The notes below the pieces were generated by a model. It saw only the letters and a program-made list of their open reading frames with translations. It was not told where the DNA came from and made no database searches. A program made the translations under genes and the position numbers. From Petrosia ficiformis (lineage: Eukaryota; Porifera; Demospongiae; Haplosclerida; Petrosiidae), in contig OX345636.1 in assembly GCA_947044365.1 (NCBI GenBank), forward strand, positions 4,980,001-5,044,000: 64,000 nt of DNA. The letters are read 5' to 3'. Positions 7,467 through 16,581 of the stretch are shown here, one piece after another. The first letter of the stretch is position 1, and every line of letters starts with the position of its first letter.

Positions 7467-9317
7467 AGCGTTTTTCACTTTCCTCTTCCAGTCTTATTGA
7501 TTAGAATTTATCATTTATACAGATTAATAATTTAATATAATGTTTGGAATGAGTACTATGCTATATGTAGAATACATAACACTATAAGTATCCATGGATC
7601 ATGAAATTAATATAATTACAGTAGACTGGATTATGTATTTTAATTAACAAGTGTACAATATCTTTCTAGGAGGATTGTATTATGTATACGTGCCCACAAT
7701 TTCCCCAGCTAGTAAGTTAATCAGTCATGAATAGTAATCACACTGCAAATAGAATTGTATTACATTTGAAAGGATATACAAATTACAATCCAATTGTCAT
7801 AGAGGTTGTTATGACTACATGATAATTTGTACCAATTATAATCATGTCTTATATTTCATATTAGACGCTACAAGGATTTAATTAAAATGTTTCTTCTGCT
7901 TCTTTGTACATCTATTAGACAGTATAAGGAAATGAAACTGCAATTATTTGATTATAATTACTACAAGTACATTTATATCACCAGGTGATCAACACAATCA
8001 ATTAAATTACAATTCCTTGCAAATGCACTAACCAATAAACTAGTTATTTTAACAATTTTATTTTTGCAGTGTAATAAATGAGCTGAATCAGTCACACAGA
8101 TCCAGCATTGGTCCATTAATTAATAGTATGGGAAGCTATTTATGGCTTCAGAACACTGAATTCCATAGCTGTGTGATATATATAATATTGAAAGTGCATT
8201 CTCACATTCACTAACTGATAGAACACAGAAGCCAAACACATAATTACGATGCTGTATGAAATTGGTTTAAACAATAAATTCATTTTTAAAGTGGTATATA
8301 TAAAGTTGACATTACATAATGCAGGAGCAAAGCATTGTTTACTGGCTACATGAGTGCATATATGTTTTGACATGTTAACATATGTTCCCCCACCAACTCA
8401 TTAATCATACATACTACTAATATATAGATGATAGTACCATTATATTACATATAAAGTCATCACATCATAATTTTGAGGTCATGGTGAATGTAAACAGACT
8501 TTAGTATATTTAACTATGACTTTAACTAAATTATGGAATCAGAGTCTATGTAGGGATGATGCTAACATGTCAAAAGCCTGTGAGGGTGGGTCAGTGGGGG
8601 TAATTCCACCCTCCACCCCTCTAAAATTTGTTTGTGAACCATTCATTGATCATTGTACTGCACATATGTAACCCCTGCAAAGTTATTCTCCCTGCCAATA
8701 ATATGCTCCTAGAAATTCCAAGATTAGCTGGCCCAGCCGGTCCGGCAGTGTATGCCGGTGGATCAAATAGTAATACATTTCAGGGGCTATCAAAGTAGTT
8801 GTAGCATAAACACAAATTTATTTCAAGTGAAATTTGCTGGAACAATTGTCGTTCTGTTTTGTTTCTTGACCTGGTTAACTAATACTTTCAGCCACTACAC
8901 TAACAACCTGCTTATAATGGGGCGCCATTTGTATAGTAAATAGCCACGCCCATTAAGATGATATGGATATCAAATTTTATAATTGTCGCTAAAAATTGAT
9001 GTGTATACTATGCACTAAGCTTACAACAATATGTAACGAAATGAGAAAATTGTAAACTGAAAAAGATAATATGTCTGTCCATGCACAAAATTAGTACTGA
9101 GTATATCTATAACTGTGGTTGTTTCTGTACTATTATGTTTGTTGAGCAGAGTCTGACAAAAAAATATAGTTATCATAATTTGCTGATACTTCATGTAATG
9201 ATGTTTAGAGCGGAGCTTTAAACAAGGTTAATGCTCAGGTGATGCGCATGCGCAGTATTAATTAATTATTGAGTTATCTCATGCTTGTGACTGGGTTTAG
9301 GGTAACTCTGCTTTGCG

Positions 9318-11141
9318 ATGGATTCACAGGATAATTTAGCCCAGCAAAGTGAACAGGAGGGTTCACAGTTTAGCTCACATGTTGAGCAAGGACCGACTAT
9401 GCCGACTAGTCTGTCCCAACAGCAGGTAATTACTACCTTCAGGGACCTGATCCATTCTGAAGTCACCGCTGCTGTTAGAGGCGCGGTAAGCCAGCTATCA
9501 GCTCTATCCCAGTCCCAGCCATTGGGGGATCTGCCCTTACCGGTAGTCACTACGAGTCAAGGTGAGTAAGGTGTTATATTTTGGACCCGCGGTCCCACCA
9601 TTTTTTTTTTGTTTGTTTGTTTTGGTCGCACGTCCCCGCTGTGGACTAACCGCCCACACTCCTCATAATAATTAATAGTTAATTAGCCCGTAATTGGCTT
9701 CTCATGGCAAGCATATCCTTACCCCTCTGCTTGGGTAGACAAAATCTATTGTGTTTCACCCACATTCTCACTGGTCACAAATTCAGTGTTCATTCCACAT
9801 GTTCTTGCTGGTCAGCGTGACCTGCTATGATGCATTCCATCTACAGGTTGGACCCGCGGTCCCGCGTGAACCACTTCCACACCTGAACATCACAGTCAAT
9901 ATGAATTCACAGTAGGACCCTTGGTCCTGCCATAATTCCATTCAGTGTTAGTCGGGCCCCGCTGGGTCTACCTATATGCAACTATATTAGGCAAATTACA
10001 AGGTGTGCCCACATTGGTGCTTCCCCTTGCTCACTGAGTGCAACACAGTCCCAGAATGGTGTTTTAAACCAGTTCATAAAGTAAGCCCACAGTCCATATC
10101 ACGGCTTGGCAGTCACAGTGTTTATACATCAATGGGGGAAGGTGACCTCCATCAACTGCTGGGTTGAACAAAGGTTGTATTTTTCTTGATCATACCCCCC
10201 TTTTACACACCCTCCTACCTTCCCCTCCCATAGATTTCCAGCTTGGTTCTATGCCTCCCCCCTCAGCTATTACCTCAGTGGCCCTATCAGGTACTTCTCT
10301 CTGTCAGCCCAGTCCCTCAGTGTCCCAGCACAGTATCATGACTTCACTGGCTTCCCCTTCCCAAACCTCGTCTGCTTGCCCTCTCAGTCAGGACCAATTG
10401 GTGGTTGACACCCCGCTAGTAGTGTCATCTGCCCTACCTCCAGTCCCAGGGAAGCTGGTAAGAAAAGTTCAGTCGGGCATGTTTGTGGACATGAAGGAGA
10501 TCTTGAGTGACAATGTCTCTTTACTCCAGAGACTAGGAGAGATTTCTTCTGGTCAGCTACCACAAAATCCACCCTTGTCTGTCAAGCTCCGAGAGGTCCC
10601 GGATATCCTGACTTGGGTTTACTGTTTCCTCGAATATATATCAATAAGGTCACAGGATAAGTTCACTCGTGACCTGGTGACCTATGCCAGAGTCATAGTC
10701 CACCTGGCTCAACGTCACGGTGGCAAGGGATGGTTGGACTATGATAAAATTTTTCGTCTCCAGGCAGCTGCCAACCCCTCTGTGTCATGGGGTGAGATTA
10801 ACCCATCTCTGATGGCAGCTACAGTACTGGTAGCAAGTTCAGGGGGCACAATGTGTGTCCTCTGCCACCAGTCGGACCACCAGACAAATGAGTGTGCCCT
10901 ACAGGCCTTGGAGGATCACTCCCAGCAGCCTCCTGGCCCAGTTCGTTACAGGCAGAGGCTCAGACCCTCACCTCTGGATGACATATGCCGGCGATTTAGT
11001 AAGGGTATGTGTAAAGCGGGAGGGGAATGCAAGTATCGACACACTTGCTCCCACTGCTTTAAAGGGGCGCATCCTGCCCTTCTATGCCCTGAGAAGTCAG
11101 GGAAGGTAATGCATGCACAAGCGCTCACCCCCTTGTTTTGA
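9318..11141 (+). CDS. Gag-like protein, spliced (9318-9561 + 10234-11141)
   Basis: Exon 1 starts at ATG 9318 (MDSQDNLAQQ...) and encodes 81 residues plus one base, ending AAG|GTGAGT, a consensus donor. Exon 2 begins after a pyrimidine tract and CCCATAG at 10234, and the phase closes exactly to GAT (Asp). The product is about 383 residues. The N-terminal 80 residues are Gln/Ser-rich with a predicted amphipathic stretch (VITTFRDLIHSEVTAAVRGAV). The middle is Pro/Ser-rich. The C-terminus has zinc-binding clusters: a CCHC-like CVLCHQSDHQTNEC, then CRRFSKGMCKAGGECKYRH (CCCH-like) and CSHCFKGAHPALLC. Such a protein would package element RNA. Reading on from exon 1 without splicing meets a stop within two codons, which supports the splice. 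Confidence 0.75.
9562..10233 (+). other. Leader intron of the retrotransposon
   Basis: Bounded by GTGAGT and CCCATAG. It carries three near-palindromic GGACCC...GGTCC motifs (9582-9597, 9849-9863, 9914-9928) plus a weaker related one near 9953 (ggccccgctgggtc). It also has a T-run at 9601-9610. Confidence 0.6.
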
Positions 11142-11487
11142 TGTGAGCTTGATATACTACCTGGCAGAAGTCCTGATACAGGTGGGTTGGCCTGGTGCCT
11201 GTGTGCCTACAAAATGCTAGTTCATGTCCAATATATCTCCGGACAGTTATGTTGTGTTGGACCGATACTTATAATCTCACTATCATTACACTGTTGTATA
11301 TTTTATGGTCTCTTGTTGATTTCATTACTTGGTATATATATATATATTATGATGAAAAAAAAAAAAAAAAATAATAATAATAATAATAATATGTCAAGCC
11401 ACTCGCCCCCCCCTTCTTGCATGTAACCCCAGACCTTAGTCTGATTATGGCACACCCATCCCCCCCTATCCCTATCTCCTCACATAG
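11142..11487 (+). other. Gap between gag stop and RT acceptor
   Basis: No open frame joins Gag to RT. It contains a TA run (11336-11348), an A-run followed by an (ATA) run (11355-11391), and a C-rich pyrimidine tract leading into the RT acceptor. This is consistent with RT being reached by splicing and not by read-through or frameshift. Confidence 0.5.
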
Positions 11488-13322
11488 GTCAATCCACTAC
11501 CCCTTCAACCCAAGGAGCCCCCCATGTGTGGCAGAGATGTGGAATCCTCTGTGGCCGTTACCAATATATAGAAGATCTCATTGCTTTGGAGAGTAGGGGT
11601 ATGACAAGCCCCAGCAACACCTTCTCATTCCCCGTGTCACACCCACTTAATAGTGGCTGCTGGGAGCCGTTCTTAGCAATCCACCCGGACCAGCAATTTG
11701 CAGCATACCTGAGAAGGGGCTTGTCACACGAATTCCACATCGGATTTCAACGGGACACAAGACTGAATTCAACAAGTAGGAACCACAGGTCAGTGCTCCA
11801 TAACCCAGTAGTGGTGCATTCGCATGTTAGTGAGGAGGTGAAAGCAGATAGACTCAAGGGTCCGTTTGCACTGACTGAGGCAGTAGCAGTTCACATCAGC
11901 CCAATTGGTATTGTCCCGAAAACACAACCAGGGAAGTGGCGTTTAATTGTGGACTTGTCTCACCCTCAAGGGGGAAGCGTCAATGATGGTATTGACCCAT
12001 CAGTATGCTCATTGAAGTATGCCTCAGTAGATGAGGCTGTGGAGGTTATAAGAAGATGGGGTCCAGGCACACTCTTAGCCAAGTTGGACTTGAAGGCTGC
12101 CTACCGTATGGTCCCAGTCCACCCCACAGATCATCACCTCTTAGGTATCATTTGGAATGAGGCAGTGTATGTTGACACAGCACTGCCTTTTGGTCTTCGC
12201 TCTGCACCGAAGATTTTCACAGCTGTAGCAGATGGTTTGGCATGGGCTATGGTGTGCAATGGTGTCAGGGAGCTGCTCCATTACTTGGATGATTTTTTAG
12301 TGTTTGGCACAGCGGGTGCACAAGAGGCAAACCTCGCCTTTACATGTGCATTGGAAACCTGCCGTCGCCTGGGTTTCCAGGTGGCCCCTGAGAAGGTGGA
12401 GGGTCCATCCACTTGCCTCACATTTCTAGGCATCGAGATTGACACCGTGGCTTATGAAGTTCGACTGCCTAGTAGTAAGCTGTCCCGTCTACAGCTGCAG
12501 TCACTATTAGGTTACCTAAACCATGCAGCAACAGTTGTGAGGCCAGGTAGAATGTTTACACGCAATTTGATTGAGGCAATCAGGAGGACAGATCACCCCC
12601 ATCACTTTGTCAGACTGAATACCCAGTGCCGGGGAGACTTACTTTGGTGGCATGAATTTGCCAACCAATGGAATGGGGTATCGTATATGCCGGCATTAGT
12701 GTCTTCAGTGTCTGTCACATCTGATGCGTCTGGCTCCTGGGGTTGTGGTGCCTACACACAGTTGGGAGAATGGTTTCAACTAGAATGGCCTGATGAGTGG
12801 CTGAATGTCAACATTGCAGCCAAAGAGATGGTTTCTATCGCAGTAGCAGCAGCTCTCTGGGGGATATCCTGGAGGGGTCAACACGTCCTGTTTCGGTCAG
12901 ATAATGAAGCCGTGGTGTGGTCAATCAATAAGAACACTGCTAGAGACCCTTCATTGTTGCATGTCCTTCGATGCTTTTTCTTCCTGGCAGCTACATTTGC
13001 TTTTACATACAAAGGGGTCCATATCCCTGGGAAATTAAATGACGCGGCGGATGCCCTATCCAGAAACAGGCCTCATCAATTTTTATCTTTCCTCCCACAG
13101 GCAGACCCCAAGGCAACACCTGTCCCAGAGGCCCTCCACTCCTTGCTTCTGGGTCAGGAGAGGACGTGGACATCCCAAGCCTGGAGACAGCGCTTCAGGG
13201 ATACCTTGTACAAGGTTTGTCAGGGTCAACCCAAAGGTCGTATGACTCAGCCAAACGCAATTGCAAGTACCTCAAGTTTTGCAACATGTTTACCTTTGAA
13301 CCCCTGCCCCTCAAAGAGGTAA
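11488..13322 (+). CDS. Reverse transcriptase and RNase H of the YR retrotransposon
   Basis: Open from 11490 to the stop at 13322, about 610 codons. The frame has no convincing ATG start before the conserved region; at 11526 it reads GTG. A strong acceptor (pyrimidine tract then CACATAG at 11487) is in the right phase for the leader exon at 9318-9561, so the protein probably starts with the same 81 residues as Gag. RT motifs: IVPKTQPGKWRLIVDLSHP, AKLDLKAAYRMVPV, LPFGLRSAPKIF, and the catalytic YLDDFLVFG. RNase H follows with its acidic residues: SDASGSWGCGAY, AAKEMVSIAVAA, FRSDNEAVVW, DALSR. It copies element RNA to DNA and removes the RNA strand. No methylase domain is seen. The 3' end overlaps the recombinase frame. 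Confidence 0.85.
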
Positions 13323-14161
13323 TAATATGTTTTTATGTTACCTGGCTTGCTAAACAGAGCCTAAAGTATTCCTCCATCCGAGGTTACTTGTCAGCACTTA
13401 GACACTTACAGATAATGGAGGGTCACCACGATCCCTGCATGGATAGTCGATTCCCACGGCTGCGGTATGTACCAAATGGAATAAGGCGTTCTACTGGAAA
13501 CCAACCAGTCCACATTCGTTTGCCGATCACACCAGAAATTCTGTTCAAATTGAAACAGGTTTGGTCTAATTGCTCTGCTGACCCAGACATTATAATCATG
13601 TGTGCAGCATGCTGCTTGGGTTTTTTTGCATTTCTTCGTTGTGGAGAATTCACTTCAACAAAGGAAGGCCATTCACCCCCACTTCAGGTAGATGGTGTCC
13701 GTGTAGATGATCACCACAAACCCACATGCATCAGTTTGTTTTTGAGCAAGAGTAAGACCGACCCATATGGCAAAGGGATCACCTTGTTTGTGGGAACGAC
13801 TGGGTCACTTTTATGCCCTGTAGCAGCGGTACTTGCTTATCTGGCAATCCGTCCTAGTACTCCTGGCCCATTATTCCTACTCTCCAGTGGGGTACCCCTC
13901 ACGAGGGAGACCTTTGTCTCTAGGCTGAAGCAGGGGCTTTCATCTGCAGGAATCGATTCCAGTGGTTACAATGGTCACAGCTTCAGGATAGGTGCTGCAA
14001 CAACAGCAGCAAGGGTGGGTATACCAGACTCTACCATAAAGATTCTAGGCAGGTGGGAATCATCTGCATACTGCCTATACATCCGAACTCCTAGACAACA
14101 GCTTACAGGCATATCGTCGAACCTAGTGTCTGTACTGCGACCAAAGGGATTAATTGTATAG
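13101..14161 (+). CDS. Tyrosine recombinase of the YR retrotransposon
   Basis: Open from 13103 to 14161 (about 352 residues) in a different frame from RT, overlapping it by 222 bases. No ATG occurs near the start; the first in-frame Met is well inside the domain. A strong acceptor (TCTTTCCTCCCACAG, ending 13100) again fits the phase-1 leader exon. An N-terminal SAM-like DNA-binding region (YLVQGLSGSTQRSYDSAKRN, then SSIRGYLSALRHLQ) precedes the catalytic domain. The latter has the arginine in FLRCGEFT, the lysine in LSKSKTDPYGKG, HSFRIG (HxxR), LGRWESSAY and the tyrosine nucleophile in YCLYIRTP. It would integrate circular element DNA by strand exchange. All catalytic residues are present. 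Confidence 0.82.
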
Positions 14162-15143
14162 TATATCTCTGCATTCATTGTTTTCGGTCTTTTATGTACA
14201 TTATAGCATCATACTAATGATGCCTTCTTTATATATCTATTATGTTCAGGGTTTGACAGTTATATCAATGTTTACCACCACCATTATTCAATGTTTTCAT
14301 ATACTATATATTGTCTTGGGGGGGAGTTTTCTAATACTCCCTTGGGCAGCAAGGACTCCGCCCTTAGCTAAACTCCGCCCCCACAGTCTAATCCAACTAG
14401 CAAAGGGGTGGGGTCAAGCAATGGTAGTCTTCAACAGAAATGTAGCCAGTTTTATTCACATCCAGTTTCTGAAATCTTGTTTTCATTTTGTAACGGAAGG
14501 AAGCCTTTTGCTTATCCGTCAGATAGTCAAAACGCCAAAACTGAGCTACGTAACGATGATGGCGATGATAAGGGCCACTTCCTCGTTACACTTCCCCTCA
14601 ATGTTAAATTCCTTCATAGAAATTGTGACAAACAATCAATATCCCAGCTTTACCGCCGATGCGAAGGGGCGGTGCCTCTAGGTAGTCTCCACCTTTCAAT
14701 AGTCTAATGCGAATATACATGCCACTGTGCGCAAAAATGGTTCGTTTCAGTACTATATATGCTATCACCAGATCTTTTTTTATGAGCTAATTCATTAGCT
14801 GTCTAATTCATTAGCTGTCTCATGAAGACAAGGCATTGCACATGTATTGTGGTATTCTAACTGACGCAGATCGTGTATGGAGTGTTGTTGCAAAACTCCT
14901 CTAGCTACATAATATTTGCATTATAGTTACAAGGAGCTAGGGGGATGGGTGGTTATTAGGCAAGGGTGGCATCAGGCCCCCAGCTCAGGGATGTGGCAAG
15001 AGGCCATAGGGCATGGTAGCATGCCCCCACATGATCTTTGAATGTACCCCAACAGTCTACTCCATTTTTACTTTGCAGTATCCTCCCCTGTGGAATAATT
15101 TATTTTGTCAAGAATAAGACAATGGCAAATAAAAATACCAGTA

Positions 15144-15252
15144 ATTAACATTCCACAAGAACAATTGCTATATATAGGGGTGAGGATATTATGCTTCATT
15201 ACATCCTCACCCTTAGCTATATACACAGCATTCGTTCTTGTGGAATGTTAAT
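15144..15252. repeat. Long imperfect hairpin, MITE-like
   Basis: The left arm starts attaacattccacaagaac and continues to gggtgaggat. The right arm is its reverse complement (atcctcaccc ... gttcttgtggaatgttaat). Arms are about 45 bases with a loop of roughly 15. This is typical of a small fold-back element. Confidence 0.7.
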
Positions 15253-16119
15253 TTTTGGTGTTTTGCGGGCTGGACATAGTCAAATGCTACATGTGGTGGT
15301 GGTATCCTTGCAGCTAATGCAGAAATTTCATCAGTGCAAATGTCACTTGACTCTGTCACACCAATAATTCCAATGTATAATTATTTCTATGAGTTGTGTG
15401 AGTATGCCAGAATTTAATTCACTAAAGCAACACTGCATGTAGATGTTGAATTCACCTTTCTAGTCATACAATTTAATTCAGTGATAGCCTAAATAGGTGA
15501 AAATTTTTCACTGGCAAAAATTGAAGGCAGTTTGGTGTTATATCTGGATAGTGCATACACTGTACCCCAAACTATCCAACCACATCAGTCATGAAACATG
15601 TATTTCTATTAATTTGAATTCACTAAAAAGATATAATATTCGGGGTGTGGTCAGCCCCATTTCTCAGCAGGAGACAAAGGACTACCCCTCCAAAAAATTT
15701 TCACTTGCAATTAAAATATATAGGTGAACTTTTGCGATCTCGTTTGGAGTTTATATACCAACGCTTAGTCAACGCTCTTGTGGGTTTCACTTGTAATGAG
15801 ATTCATATAGTACTTCCTGTGTTGGTAGACGTGCTGGTCGCAGGTCAAACTGGCCACGCAGACATGCTTCCTAGATTTTTCAATTTTAAACTCCTGCGGT
15901 AGTATCTAGCTATATATAATGATCGGTCATCAGTTTTGTAGCAAACAATTCAAGCAAGGTTGTGTAATTACAATTCAGTTTATTTTTTTAATTTTCTTTC
16001 ACCGGGGTCACCAAATTAACTTCATGATCTTACTGTCTGCTATACTAAAAGACTAGCTAATACCTACTGTCTGTCAATGCAGTTTGGAAGTCCAACTCAG
16101 ACTGTAACAGTGCAAGAGA

Positions 16120-16581
16120 AATCTTGAATTTTCAGAATGACAGAATTGCCCCATCTTAGTGATGGACAATGGCGTAATTAGCTTCATAGTGTGTGATTAT
16201 TGTGGCAGTAATCACCAGTGCCTAAAATAATTATATAGCCACACATGCTATAATATATATAAGTGTATATGTATGCCATAATTGTTTATCATCAAACAAG
16301 TTGCCATAGTCTTGAAAGTTTTGAGGCTAACATTGTGGTTCAATTGATCTCATTTGATACTCTAAACAGGTGCAAAACTAACATCGCAACTCAGTGCACG
16401 TGATAATTAATAATTATCCACATTTTTCACTAAAGGTTCTTGTGTGAGCGAAATTGAAATACACTACTTGAAATGACAAAACACATACTCATTATAGTGG
16501 GACAGGAAGAATCTTGAATTTTCAGAATGACAGAATTGCCCCATCTTAGTGATGGACAATGGCGTAATTAGCTTCATAGTG
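16120..16581. repeat. Exact 72-bp direct repeat pair
   Basis: Bases 16120-16191 and 16510-16581 are identical, beginning aatcttgaattttcagaatg and ending gcttcatagtg, separated by about 320 bases of different sequence. The unit contains a near-palindrome (attgccccat...gatggacaat). Confidence 0.85.

Follow-up and report, generated by a model that had tools for sequence, protein, structure and literature searches.

A coding leader exon predicted to be spliced to three acceptors in a Ngaro-type retrotransposon of the sponge Petrosia ficiformis

Results

Organization of the element

The DNA analysed (the window) is a stretch of 64,000 nucleotides from Petrosia ficiformis contig OX345636.1, and all features described lie on its forward strand. 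Genes and repeats found between 9179 and 14424 are best explained as a copy of a Ngaro-type tyrosine-recombinase retrotransposon, as judged from gene order, domains and repeats. A 5' untranslated part, which carries an A-type terminal repeat (9179..9317), is followed by a leader exon (9318..9561), a Gag-like exon with a CCCH-type knuckle (10234..11141), an RT/RNase H exon with a YLDD motif (11488..13322), a tyrosine recombinase (REC) exon in which HxxR and Tyr are present (13101..14161), and a B-type terminal repeat (14344..14424).

Pfam matches of the Gag-like exon are weak, below the curated cut-off, and homologues were found. RVT_1 (1.8e-12) is the only Pfam call in the RT ORF, and RNase H is not called; DAS, SDN and ADALSR, spotted by eye, are presumably its motifs. 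The window RT misses a conserved 16-residue stretch near 12492. Phage_integrase matches the last exon at 7.8e-4, below cut-off; the enzyme is regarded as a tyrosine recombinase and not a DDE integrase, as relative P0004 (53% identity) passes the cut-off, and HxxR and Tyr are seen by eye. No methyltransferase match was obtained by Pfam in the element, RVT_1 being the sole domain in the window RT and in relatives P0123 and P0126.

The sequence at about 9197-9313 is found again at the 3' end of copy L012, which features split direct repeats in the order A1-ORFs-B1-A2-B2; the B-type repeat marks an element end common to L010, L012 and L013. The order Gag, RT/RNase H, tyrosine recombinase, the lack of a methyltransferase match and the L012 repeats are all Ngaro-like. 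Split direct repeats were not found in the L010 and L011 stretches examined. No direct repeats of 25 nt or more occur within 8000-16500, hence the 3' repeats of the window copy are missing. The inverted terminal repeats and methyltransferase that characterize DIRS1-like elements were not found in the window element, the sole inverted pair with arms of 25 nt or more in the same interval (15132-15264) lying outside it. No Rfam family reached gathering score in 8800-15500, and one scan found no relatives in viral contigs.

Leader exon and splice donor

The leader opens with an ATG at 9318, measures 244 nt (81 codons plus one base), and encodes the helix motif VITTFRDLIHSEV. It ends at a 5' splice donor, GTGAGT (9562..9567; tcaag/GTGAGTAA, that is AAG/GTGAGT), the only GTRAGT within 9318-14161. 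Unspliced, the leader frame codes for 83 residues, and is closed by a TAA (9567-9569) overlapping the donor.

The predicted intron before Gag (9562..10233) has more indels and diverges more quickly between copies than the leader exon. In L010, L011 and L012, changes relative to the window measure 0.4, 1.6 and 4.5% in the leader versus 2.4, 3.6 and 9.3% in the intron, and gap columns 0, 1 and 0 versus 8, 35 and 47. Leader pN/pS values within the family rest on few changes: L010 has no synonymous change, then come 0.31 and 0.54, and 1.27 against the degenerate L014. Leader DNA matches 8 genomic places. Five hold its 3' end (window, L010, L011, L012, L014) and all run into the intron, so that a genomic copy derived from spliced RNA was not found for the window family; this lack of retrocopies neither supports nor opposes splicing. 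Pfam holds no family for the window leader, nor for three of four other leaders scanned (that of L048 was left out); the L050 leader gave a single match, to DUF5470 at 0.032, below cut-off. The leader has no PDB match at E 1.

Candidate acceptors in the window copy

Three candidate acceptor tracts precede the large exons. Those of Gag (10212..10233; cctcccatag before 10234) and RT (11466..11487; tcacatag before 11488) end in CCCATAG and CACATAG, respectively. The recombinase tract (13079..13100; ctcccacag before 13101) ends in CCTCCCACAG, and lies within the RT frame, where it reads ...PQ. All three leave two spare bases to the phase-1 donor, and leader sequences joined in silico to Gag, RT and REC are in frame up to the expected stops (383, 692 and 434 aa). 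Every coordinate given for leader, donor and acceptors in the preliminary description proved correct on direct reading, as did the overlap of the RT and REC frames, whose stops are at 13322 and 14161. That neither frame has a usable ATG was also borne out. The earliest Met residues (RT residue 39, REC residue 63) both fall beyond conserved positions, and are Met in 0/119 RT and 2/118 REC relatives listed; the window REC frame has no ATG from its opening to the domain.

An alignment of sister copies, proposed to see whether leader, donor and acceptors stay in phase, showed them mostly kept within the family, with exceptions in L012 and L014. The leader ATG is conserved in 4/4 copies aligned and the donor in 3/4 (GTGACT in L014). 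The AG of the first acceptor is kept in 4/4 copies, with one additional base in the tract of L012 and several indels in that of L014, the second AG in 3/3 and the third in 5/5, L014 having lost 6 nt of the tract.

Agreement of three phases by chance had been put at 1 in 27. The figure is fair as a naive estimate and weak alone, because the sites were selected with the sequence in view. AG often follows a pyrimidine run, the choice of sites was free, and a single element could fit by chance; therefore other families were compared.

Acceptors and leaders in other families

Families (about 41-52% RT identity) were assigned by visual judgement of similarity rather than by clustering. In each, the best-scoring AG upstream of conserved homology was taken, according to a simple 3' splice site score based on splice site frequencies. 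L016, L017, L021, L023, L032, L034, L040, L043, L044, L026, L036, L042, L028, L027, L030, L029 and L038 were dropped before the count as further copies; L033, L037 and L055 were also dropped. L019 replaced L018 at Gag, L031 was used instead of L027, and the L022 REC, broken in frame there, was left unscored. The scan start was moved some codons downstream to include the known site in the three window ORFs, and in the L024 and L059 REC.

The best AG leaves two spare bases in 9/9 families for Gag, 10/11 for RT and 9/9 for REC, or 28/29 sites over 11 families. A stricter RT count, in which L033 is added and the weak L031 not credited, gives 9/12 and lowers the total to 27/30. Dropped rows, when rescored, had two spare bases in 10/13 cases, the exceptions being L033 RT, L030 RT and the Gag of L027, a degenerate copy whose best AG is out of phase. 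The REC acceptor candidate of L024 and L028 also leaves two spare bases. All three acceptors are in phase in L059, a contig from a sponge-symbiont MAG which is probably host DNA of another species; no ATG is found there in the open frame ahead of Gag, RT or REC homology.

Leaders that encode the helix motif and end at a GTRAGT donor in phase 1 were identified in 6 of the 9 families in which upstream DNA was read. The five outside the window family start with ATG and measure 63-112 codons. No leader was found upstream in the other three (copies L051/L055, L052, L053). All six motif-bearing leader donors, the window one included, are in phase 1. A motif pattern, written after the leaders had been seen, catches 4 of the 5 other leaders, and had no match when one 2.3-kb stretch was letter-shuffled 200 times. 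As background, window DNA beyond the element (117,000 bases when the two strands are summed) contains 58 GTRAGT, of which only 3 close an ATG frame of at least 60 codons. Of the five second copies that cover the donor, four (L065 to L068) retain it; the degenerate L049 has lost it.

Other ATG frames ending at GTRAG were noted in three copies. Both frames of L045 lack a spare base, and the shorter is the first part of the leader itself; L052 has one, also with no spare base; the two of L051 are in phase 1 and resemble host Ig-type exons.

That fitting sites were merely picked is hard to reconcile with rule-based choices in phase in 28/29 (27/30) cases, six of six donors in phase 1 and three acceptors in phase in L059, and coincidence is considered extremely improbable.

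The RT junction and start codons

Of the three predicted junctions, that of RT is the least certain. The best-scoring RT AG is out of phase in L035, and in L030; in its sister L031 the in-phase AG scores only -2.1. L033 has no good RT AG, the best leaving one spare base. An ATG is present in the open frame ahead of conserved homology in 5/12 RT and 4/9 Gag frames scored. Among relatives listed, Met occurs at RT residue 18 in 27/119 and at recombinase residue 28 in 36/118. The weak RT acceptors, the ATGs in five of 12 RT families and these Met residues fit a scheme in which the leader is used by Gag only, or by Gag and recombinase, RT and perhaps recombinase being made by internal initiation, re-initiation or from 5'-truncated transcripts, with some acceptor-like sites incidental. 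We consider this unlikely, since the best RT AG is in phase in 10/11 families (9/12 on the stricter count) despite lying 8 to 56 bases from conserved sequence, none of the 10 REC frames scored, outgroup included, has an ATG before the domain, and conservation of the REC tract and its CAG codon exceeds what the protein requires. Exon lengths vary and phase is kept, the pattern expected if leader-to-exon splicing is under selection; from frameshifting or internal initiation one would expect neither the recurring phases, nor the leader donor, nor this constancy.

M is the first letter of 119 of the 120 recombinase entries listed, so that any start codon is probably rendered as M in the database; internal starts may nevertheless occur. 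When the fused leader+REC protein was searched, the best 120 of 2879 matches covered 57-80% of the query; the database entries appear to be single-frame calls, and the search is thus mute on fusion.

The recombinase acceptor and the PQ site

The CAG of the recombinase acceptor is the codon of RT residue Q538. Among the RT relatives listed, Q is found in 107/119 and the P of PQ in 114/119, and the lineage whose Gag is a single exon has PQ as well. The acceptor could in principle be a by-product of the conserved RT C-terminal motif F.SL.PQA, the recombinase being made by frameshifting from RT, and protein-level conservation of PQ, even where Gag has one exon, agrees with that. At the codon level the data point elsewhere: Q538 is CAG in 25/25 aligned loci (23 distinct copies) against 459 CAG and 390 CAA (54% CAG) for Q codons overall in those matches, and the conserved residues beside it are those with pyrimidine-rich codons. 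As frameshifting also leaves the leader and the Gag and RT acceptors unexplained, it is judged very unlikely.

A deeper lineage on C11 has a one-exon Gag and no convincing RT acceptor; its REC acceptor is nonetheless in phase. A phase-1 GTAAGT inside the C11 Gag (L054:1598) was considered as ancestral donor and rejected, as the related C8 copy lacks it.

Discussion

From the phases, the open frames and their conservation across families, we infer splicing of a common leader. This Ngaro-type lineage very probably uses alternative splicing to give the mRNAs of Gag, RT and recombinase one coding leader; the earlier proposal that three proteins share an N-terminus in this way gains support from phases recurring across families. 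A single primary transcript would start upstream of the leader. Unspliced, it would serve as genome for reverse transcription and, read from the leader ATG, would code only for the 83-residue peptide. The single strong donor would be joined to one of three acceptors, yielding leader-Gag, leader-RT/RNase H and leader-recombinase mRNAs. The three proteins would have an identical N-terminus, in which a short amphipathic helix is embedded in low-complexity sequence. Lacking a protease and a Gag-Pol fusion, the element would set the protein ratio by acceptor choice. The shared helix may act as a natural tag, recruiting RT and recombinase into the Gag particle.

A broader reading, entertained tentatively at somewhat below even chance, is that in a widespread animal Ngaro-type lineage the three-way leader splice replaced Gag-Pol fusion and protease processing. 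The helix would be an assembly tag, and PQ (107/119 listed RT relatives) would mark the strategy across hosts and explain overlapping recombinase ORFs devoid of a start.

The integration machinery of foamy viruses is unrelated to that of tyrosine-recombinase elements. Expression of foamy virus Pol and of insect ERV env offers partial parallels. Foamy viruses make the RT protein from its own spliced mRNA, with no Gag-Pol fusion, as predicted here for RT; a coding leader common to Gag and Pol is not described in the available portions of the source (PMC7828637). In insect ERVs (ZAM and Beagle subclades), the accessible descriptions concern Env only, whereas here Gag, RT and recombinase all appear leader-joined. 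In the parts of PMC3783388 at hand, Ngaro elements have three ORFs, with the YR in the same frame or frameshifted, differently from the leader splicing predicted here, and elements of this type encode no protease. LAP2alpha exons of TMPO and ZNF451 were domesticated from DIRS1-like gag; capture by host genes is inferred in the excerpts of PMC4495291 used here, and splice-based expression of the element itself is not proposed in them.

Our literature search found no tyrosine-recombinase element described as using leader splicing for its three proteins. The strings "intron" and "splic" are absent from PMC3783388, PMC3266345 and PMC9210276 (counts of 0); in PMC8547959 "splic" is absent, and "intron" occurs twice, both times concerning virophages and their host insertion sites. 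How tyrosine-recombinase retroelements make three separate proteins is not addressed in the portions of the cited literature covered. Many distant relatives share the layout, suggesting a mode of gene expression unrecognised so far for such elements.

No protease is encoded by tyrosine-recombinase retroelements, whose ORFs overlap in many cases; a conserved leader spliced in three ways would solve the problem of making separate proteins. If the leader is shared, Gag, RT and recombinase should carry one N-terminal tag, and exact junctions are expected at 9561-10234, 9561-11488 and 9561-13101. It may also be a reason why acceptors lie before gag, where host genes could capture them, as inferred for LAP2alpha in the passages of PMC4495291 consulted.

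Identity and state of the element

The element spans positions 9179–14424 of the window and features, in this order, a leader, Gag, RT with a putative RNase H, and a recombinase; position 14424 is the common end of the matches of loci L010, L012 and L013. The RT matches Pfam RVT_1 (1.8e-12), the recombinase matches Phage_integrase below the cut-off (7.8e-4), and Gag gives weak CCCH-type matches and nothing else. A methyltransferase domain was not found by domain search, and split direct repeats (A1-ORFs-B1-A2-B2) are present in the copy L012. In these terms the element fits Ngaro. No split direct repeats were found in the window copy by repeat search, and its RT is short of 16 residues near 12492 which are present in 19/19 aligned relatives, an in-frame deletion as judged by the extra bases found there in the DNA alignments of other copies. 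Lacking both, the window copy itself may be dead. About 700 bases beyond the element, an imperfect inverted repeat (15132–15264; 54-nt arms, 80% complementary) is possibly a MITE.

The proposed leader exon and its three acceptors

According to the preliminary description, one coding leader is alternatively spliced to Gag, RT and recombinase. Direct reading of the sequence confirmed all its coordinates. The leader (9318–9561) measures 81 codons plus one base and ends in AAG/GTGAGT, the sole GTRAGT in 9318–14161. Downstream of each predicted acceptor (10234, 11488 and 13101) the frame begins with two bases to spare, which complete a codon with the extra base of the leader. The frames stay open as claimed: the in silico leader-Gag (383 aa), leader-RT (692 aa) and leader-recombinase (434 aa) products each carry one terminal stop. 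Without splicing, the leader frame stays open for 83 residues and closes at a TAA that overlaps the donor.

A genome search with the leader gave eight matches. In aligned same-family copies the ATG and the three AGs are conserved wherever these are covered, the donor only partly, being GTGAGT in 3/4 and GTGACT in L014, the 80% copy. Divergence in L010, L011 and L012 is 0.4, 1.6 and 4.5% for the leader and 2.4, 3.6 and 9.3% for the predicted intron; gap columns are 0, 1 and 0 in the leader vs 8, 35 and 47 in the intron.

Leaders in other families

Upstream DNA was examined in ten divergent copies from eight families, and in the outgroup. ATG leaders of 63–112 codons, with a phase-1 GTAAGT or GTGAGT donor, were found in five divergent families (6/9 families including the window), and none was found in L051, L052, L053 and L055. 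The five families have a leader motif in common (LLASVRRVVQAEL, LMASVRRVVQSEL, VLDTIRAAVQSEV, LLELIRNEVRQEM, LLPTLRSLIQEGV; VITTFRDLIHSEV in the window); the search pattern, derived from these same leaders, missed the motif of L048, and is a rough net only. For the 18-residue helix segments, the hydrophobic moment at 100 degrees is between 0.28 and 0.44. The donor is kept in 4/5 second copies covering it (L065–L068, not L049), a count leaving out L064, which ends short of the donor. The L049 leader exon equals that of L050 over 190 bases, the donor being removed by a small deletion. Repeated Ig-like coding frames with phase-1 donors at L051, upstream of the L041 copy, are probably host gene exons.

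Acceptor phase in distant relatives

An RT search of the genome gave 88 matches. In the divergent families used (RT identity about 41–52%), the best pyrimidine-rich AG ahead of the conserved homology usually leaves two spare bases. A rule-based scan picked, in one copy per family, the AG with the highest score in the interval from the last in-frame stop to the start of homology; some rows were dropped and some scan starts adjusted, L059 (from a prokaryote record) was counted, and the outgroup was kept apart. Two spare bases were found for Gag in 9/9, RT in 10/11 and recombinase in 9/9 families (binomial vs 1/3: 5e-5, 1.3e-4 and 5e-5, for families which share descent and are not independent trials). 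A stricter RT count is 9/12, with L033 added (best AG with one spare base and a poor score) and L031 not credited (in-phase AG scoring -2.1, sister L030 out of phase). The distance of in-phase RT sites from the homology varies (8 to 56 bases), yet the phase is kept. An ATG precedes the Gag homology in 4/9 families and the RT homology in 5/12 scored, so some families may start RT internally.

The recombinase acceptor reads F.SL.PQ/A in the RT frame. P is kept in 114/119 and Q in 107/119 RT relatives (the 120 matches listed of 3338, own-family P0121 removed), a conservation that could stem from the protein motif alone. Against this, the Q codon is CAG in 25/25 loci (23 distinct copies, overlapping pairs L021/L043 and L032/L044 removed), while all Q codons of the same matches count 459 CAG vs 390 CAA; with a CAG share of 0.54, the chance of finding CAG throughout about ten families is about 0.002 (0.54^10). 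The invariant CAG thus favours a splice site. L032 and L044 also have a second alignment, in another frame. Among the matches listed, called starts of recombinase relatives are scattered, with Met at residue 28 in 36/118 and at residue 23 in 18/118; an initial M in the database probably stands for a start codon of any kind.

Scanning of prokaryote genomes gave five loci (L059–L063). L059 is recorded under Gammaproteobacteria bacterium AqS3, which lives in symbiosis with the sponge Amphimedon queenslandica; the contig is thus probably host DNA contaminating a bacterial MAG. It holds Gag, RT (46%) and recombinase, all three acceptors being in phase, with no ATG in the open frames ahead of the three homologies; the contig ends before the leader position. 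Its RT region matches this genome in two short stretches only (71–73%), and is therefore independent of it. L060, from a Cycloclasticus symbiont record of a Poecilosclerida sponge and probably host contamination as well, is too broken to use; copia-like frames were also seen by eye. L061–L063 are distant (23–27%) and were left out.

The outgroup is a deeper Ngaro-like lineage (L054 with L056 on contig C11, also C10, C12 and C8; C11 RT 37%). Its Gag is one exon, with a SAP domain (3e-7) and an RS-rich stretch, and gag and RT overlap. RT and recombinase have no early ATG, the first RT-frame Met being residue 195. The recombinase acceptor is in phase; scans for an RT acceptor found no good one. 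Related Gag fragments on contig C1 (near 14533021, 14562650, 14591985 and 14620880) lie ~29 kb apart, three equal in score, which suggests tandem segmental duplication.

Relation to known strategies

A coding leader spliced to Ngaro or DIRS genes was not found in the accessible portions of the literature covered (PMC3783388, PMC3266345, PMC9210276, PMC8547959, PMC4157794, PMC12477816, PMC5633606, PMC8096092, PMC12992720, PMC7828637, PMC4495291), a scope outside which subscription papers mostly fall. The nearest known strategies are those of foamy viruses, in which Pol has a spliced mRNA to itself, and of insect ERVs, in which a peptide-coding exon located upstream of gag is joined to env by splicing. 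The RT junction is the least certain of the three; as a whole, the conserved anatomy supports alternative splicing of one leader to Gag, RT and recombinase.
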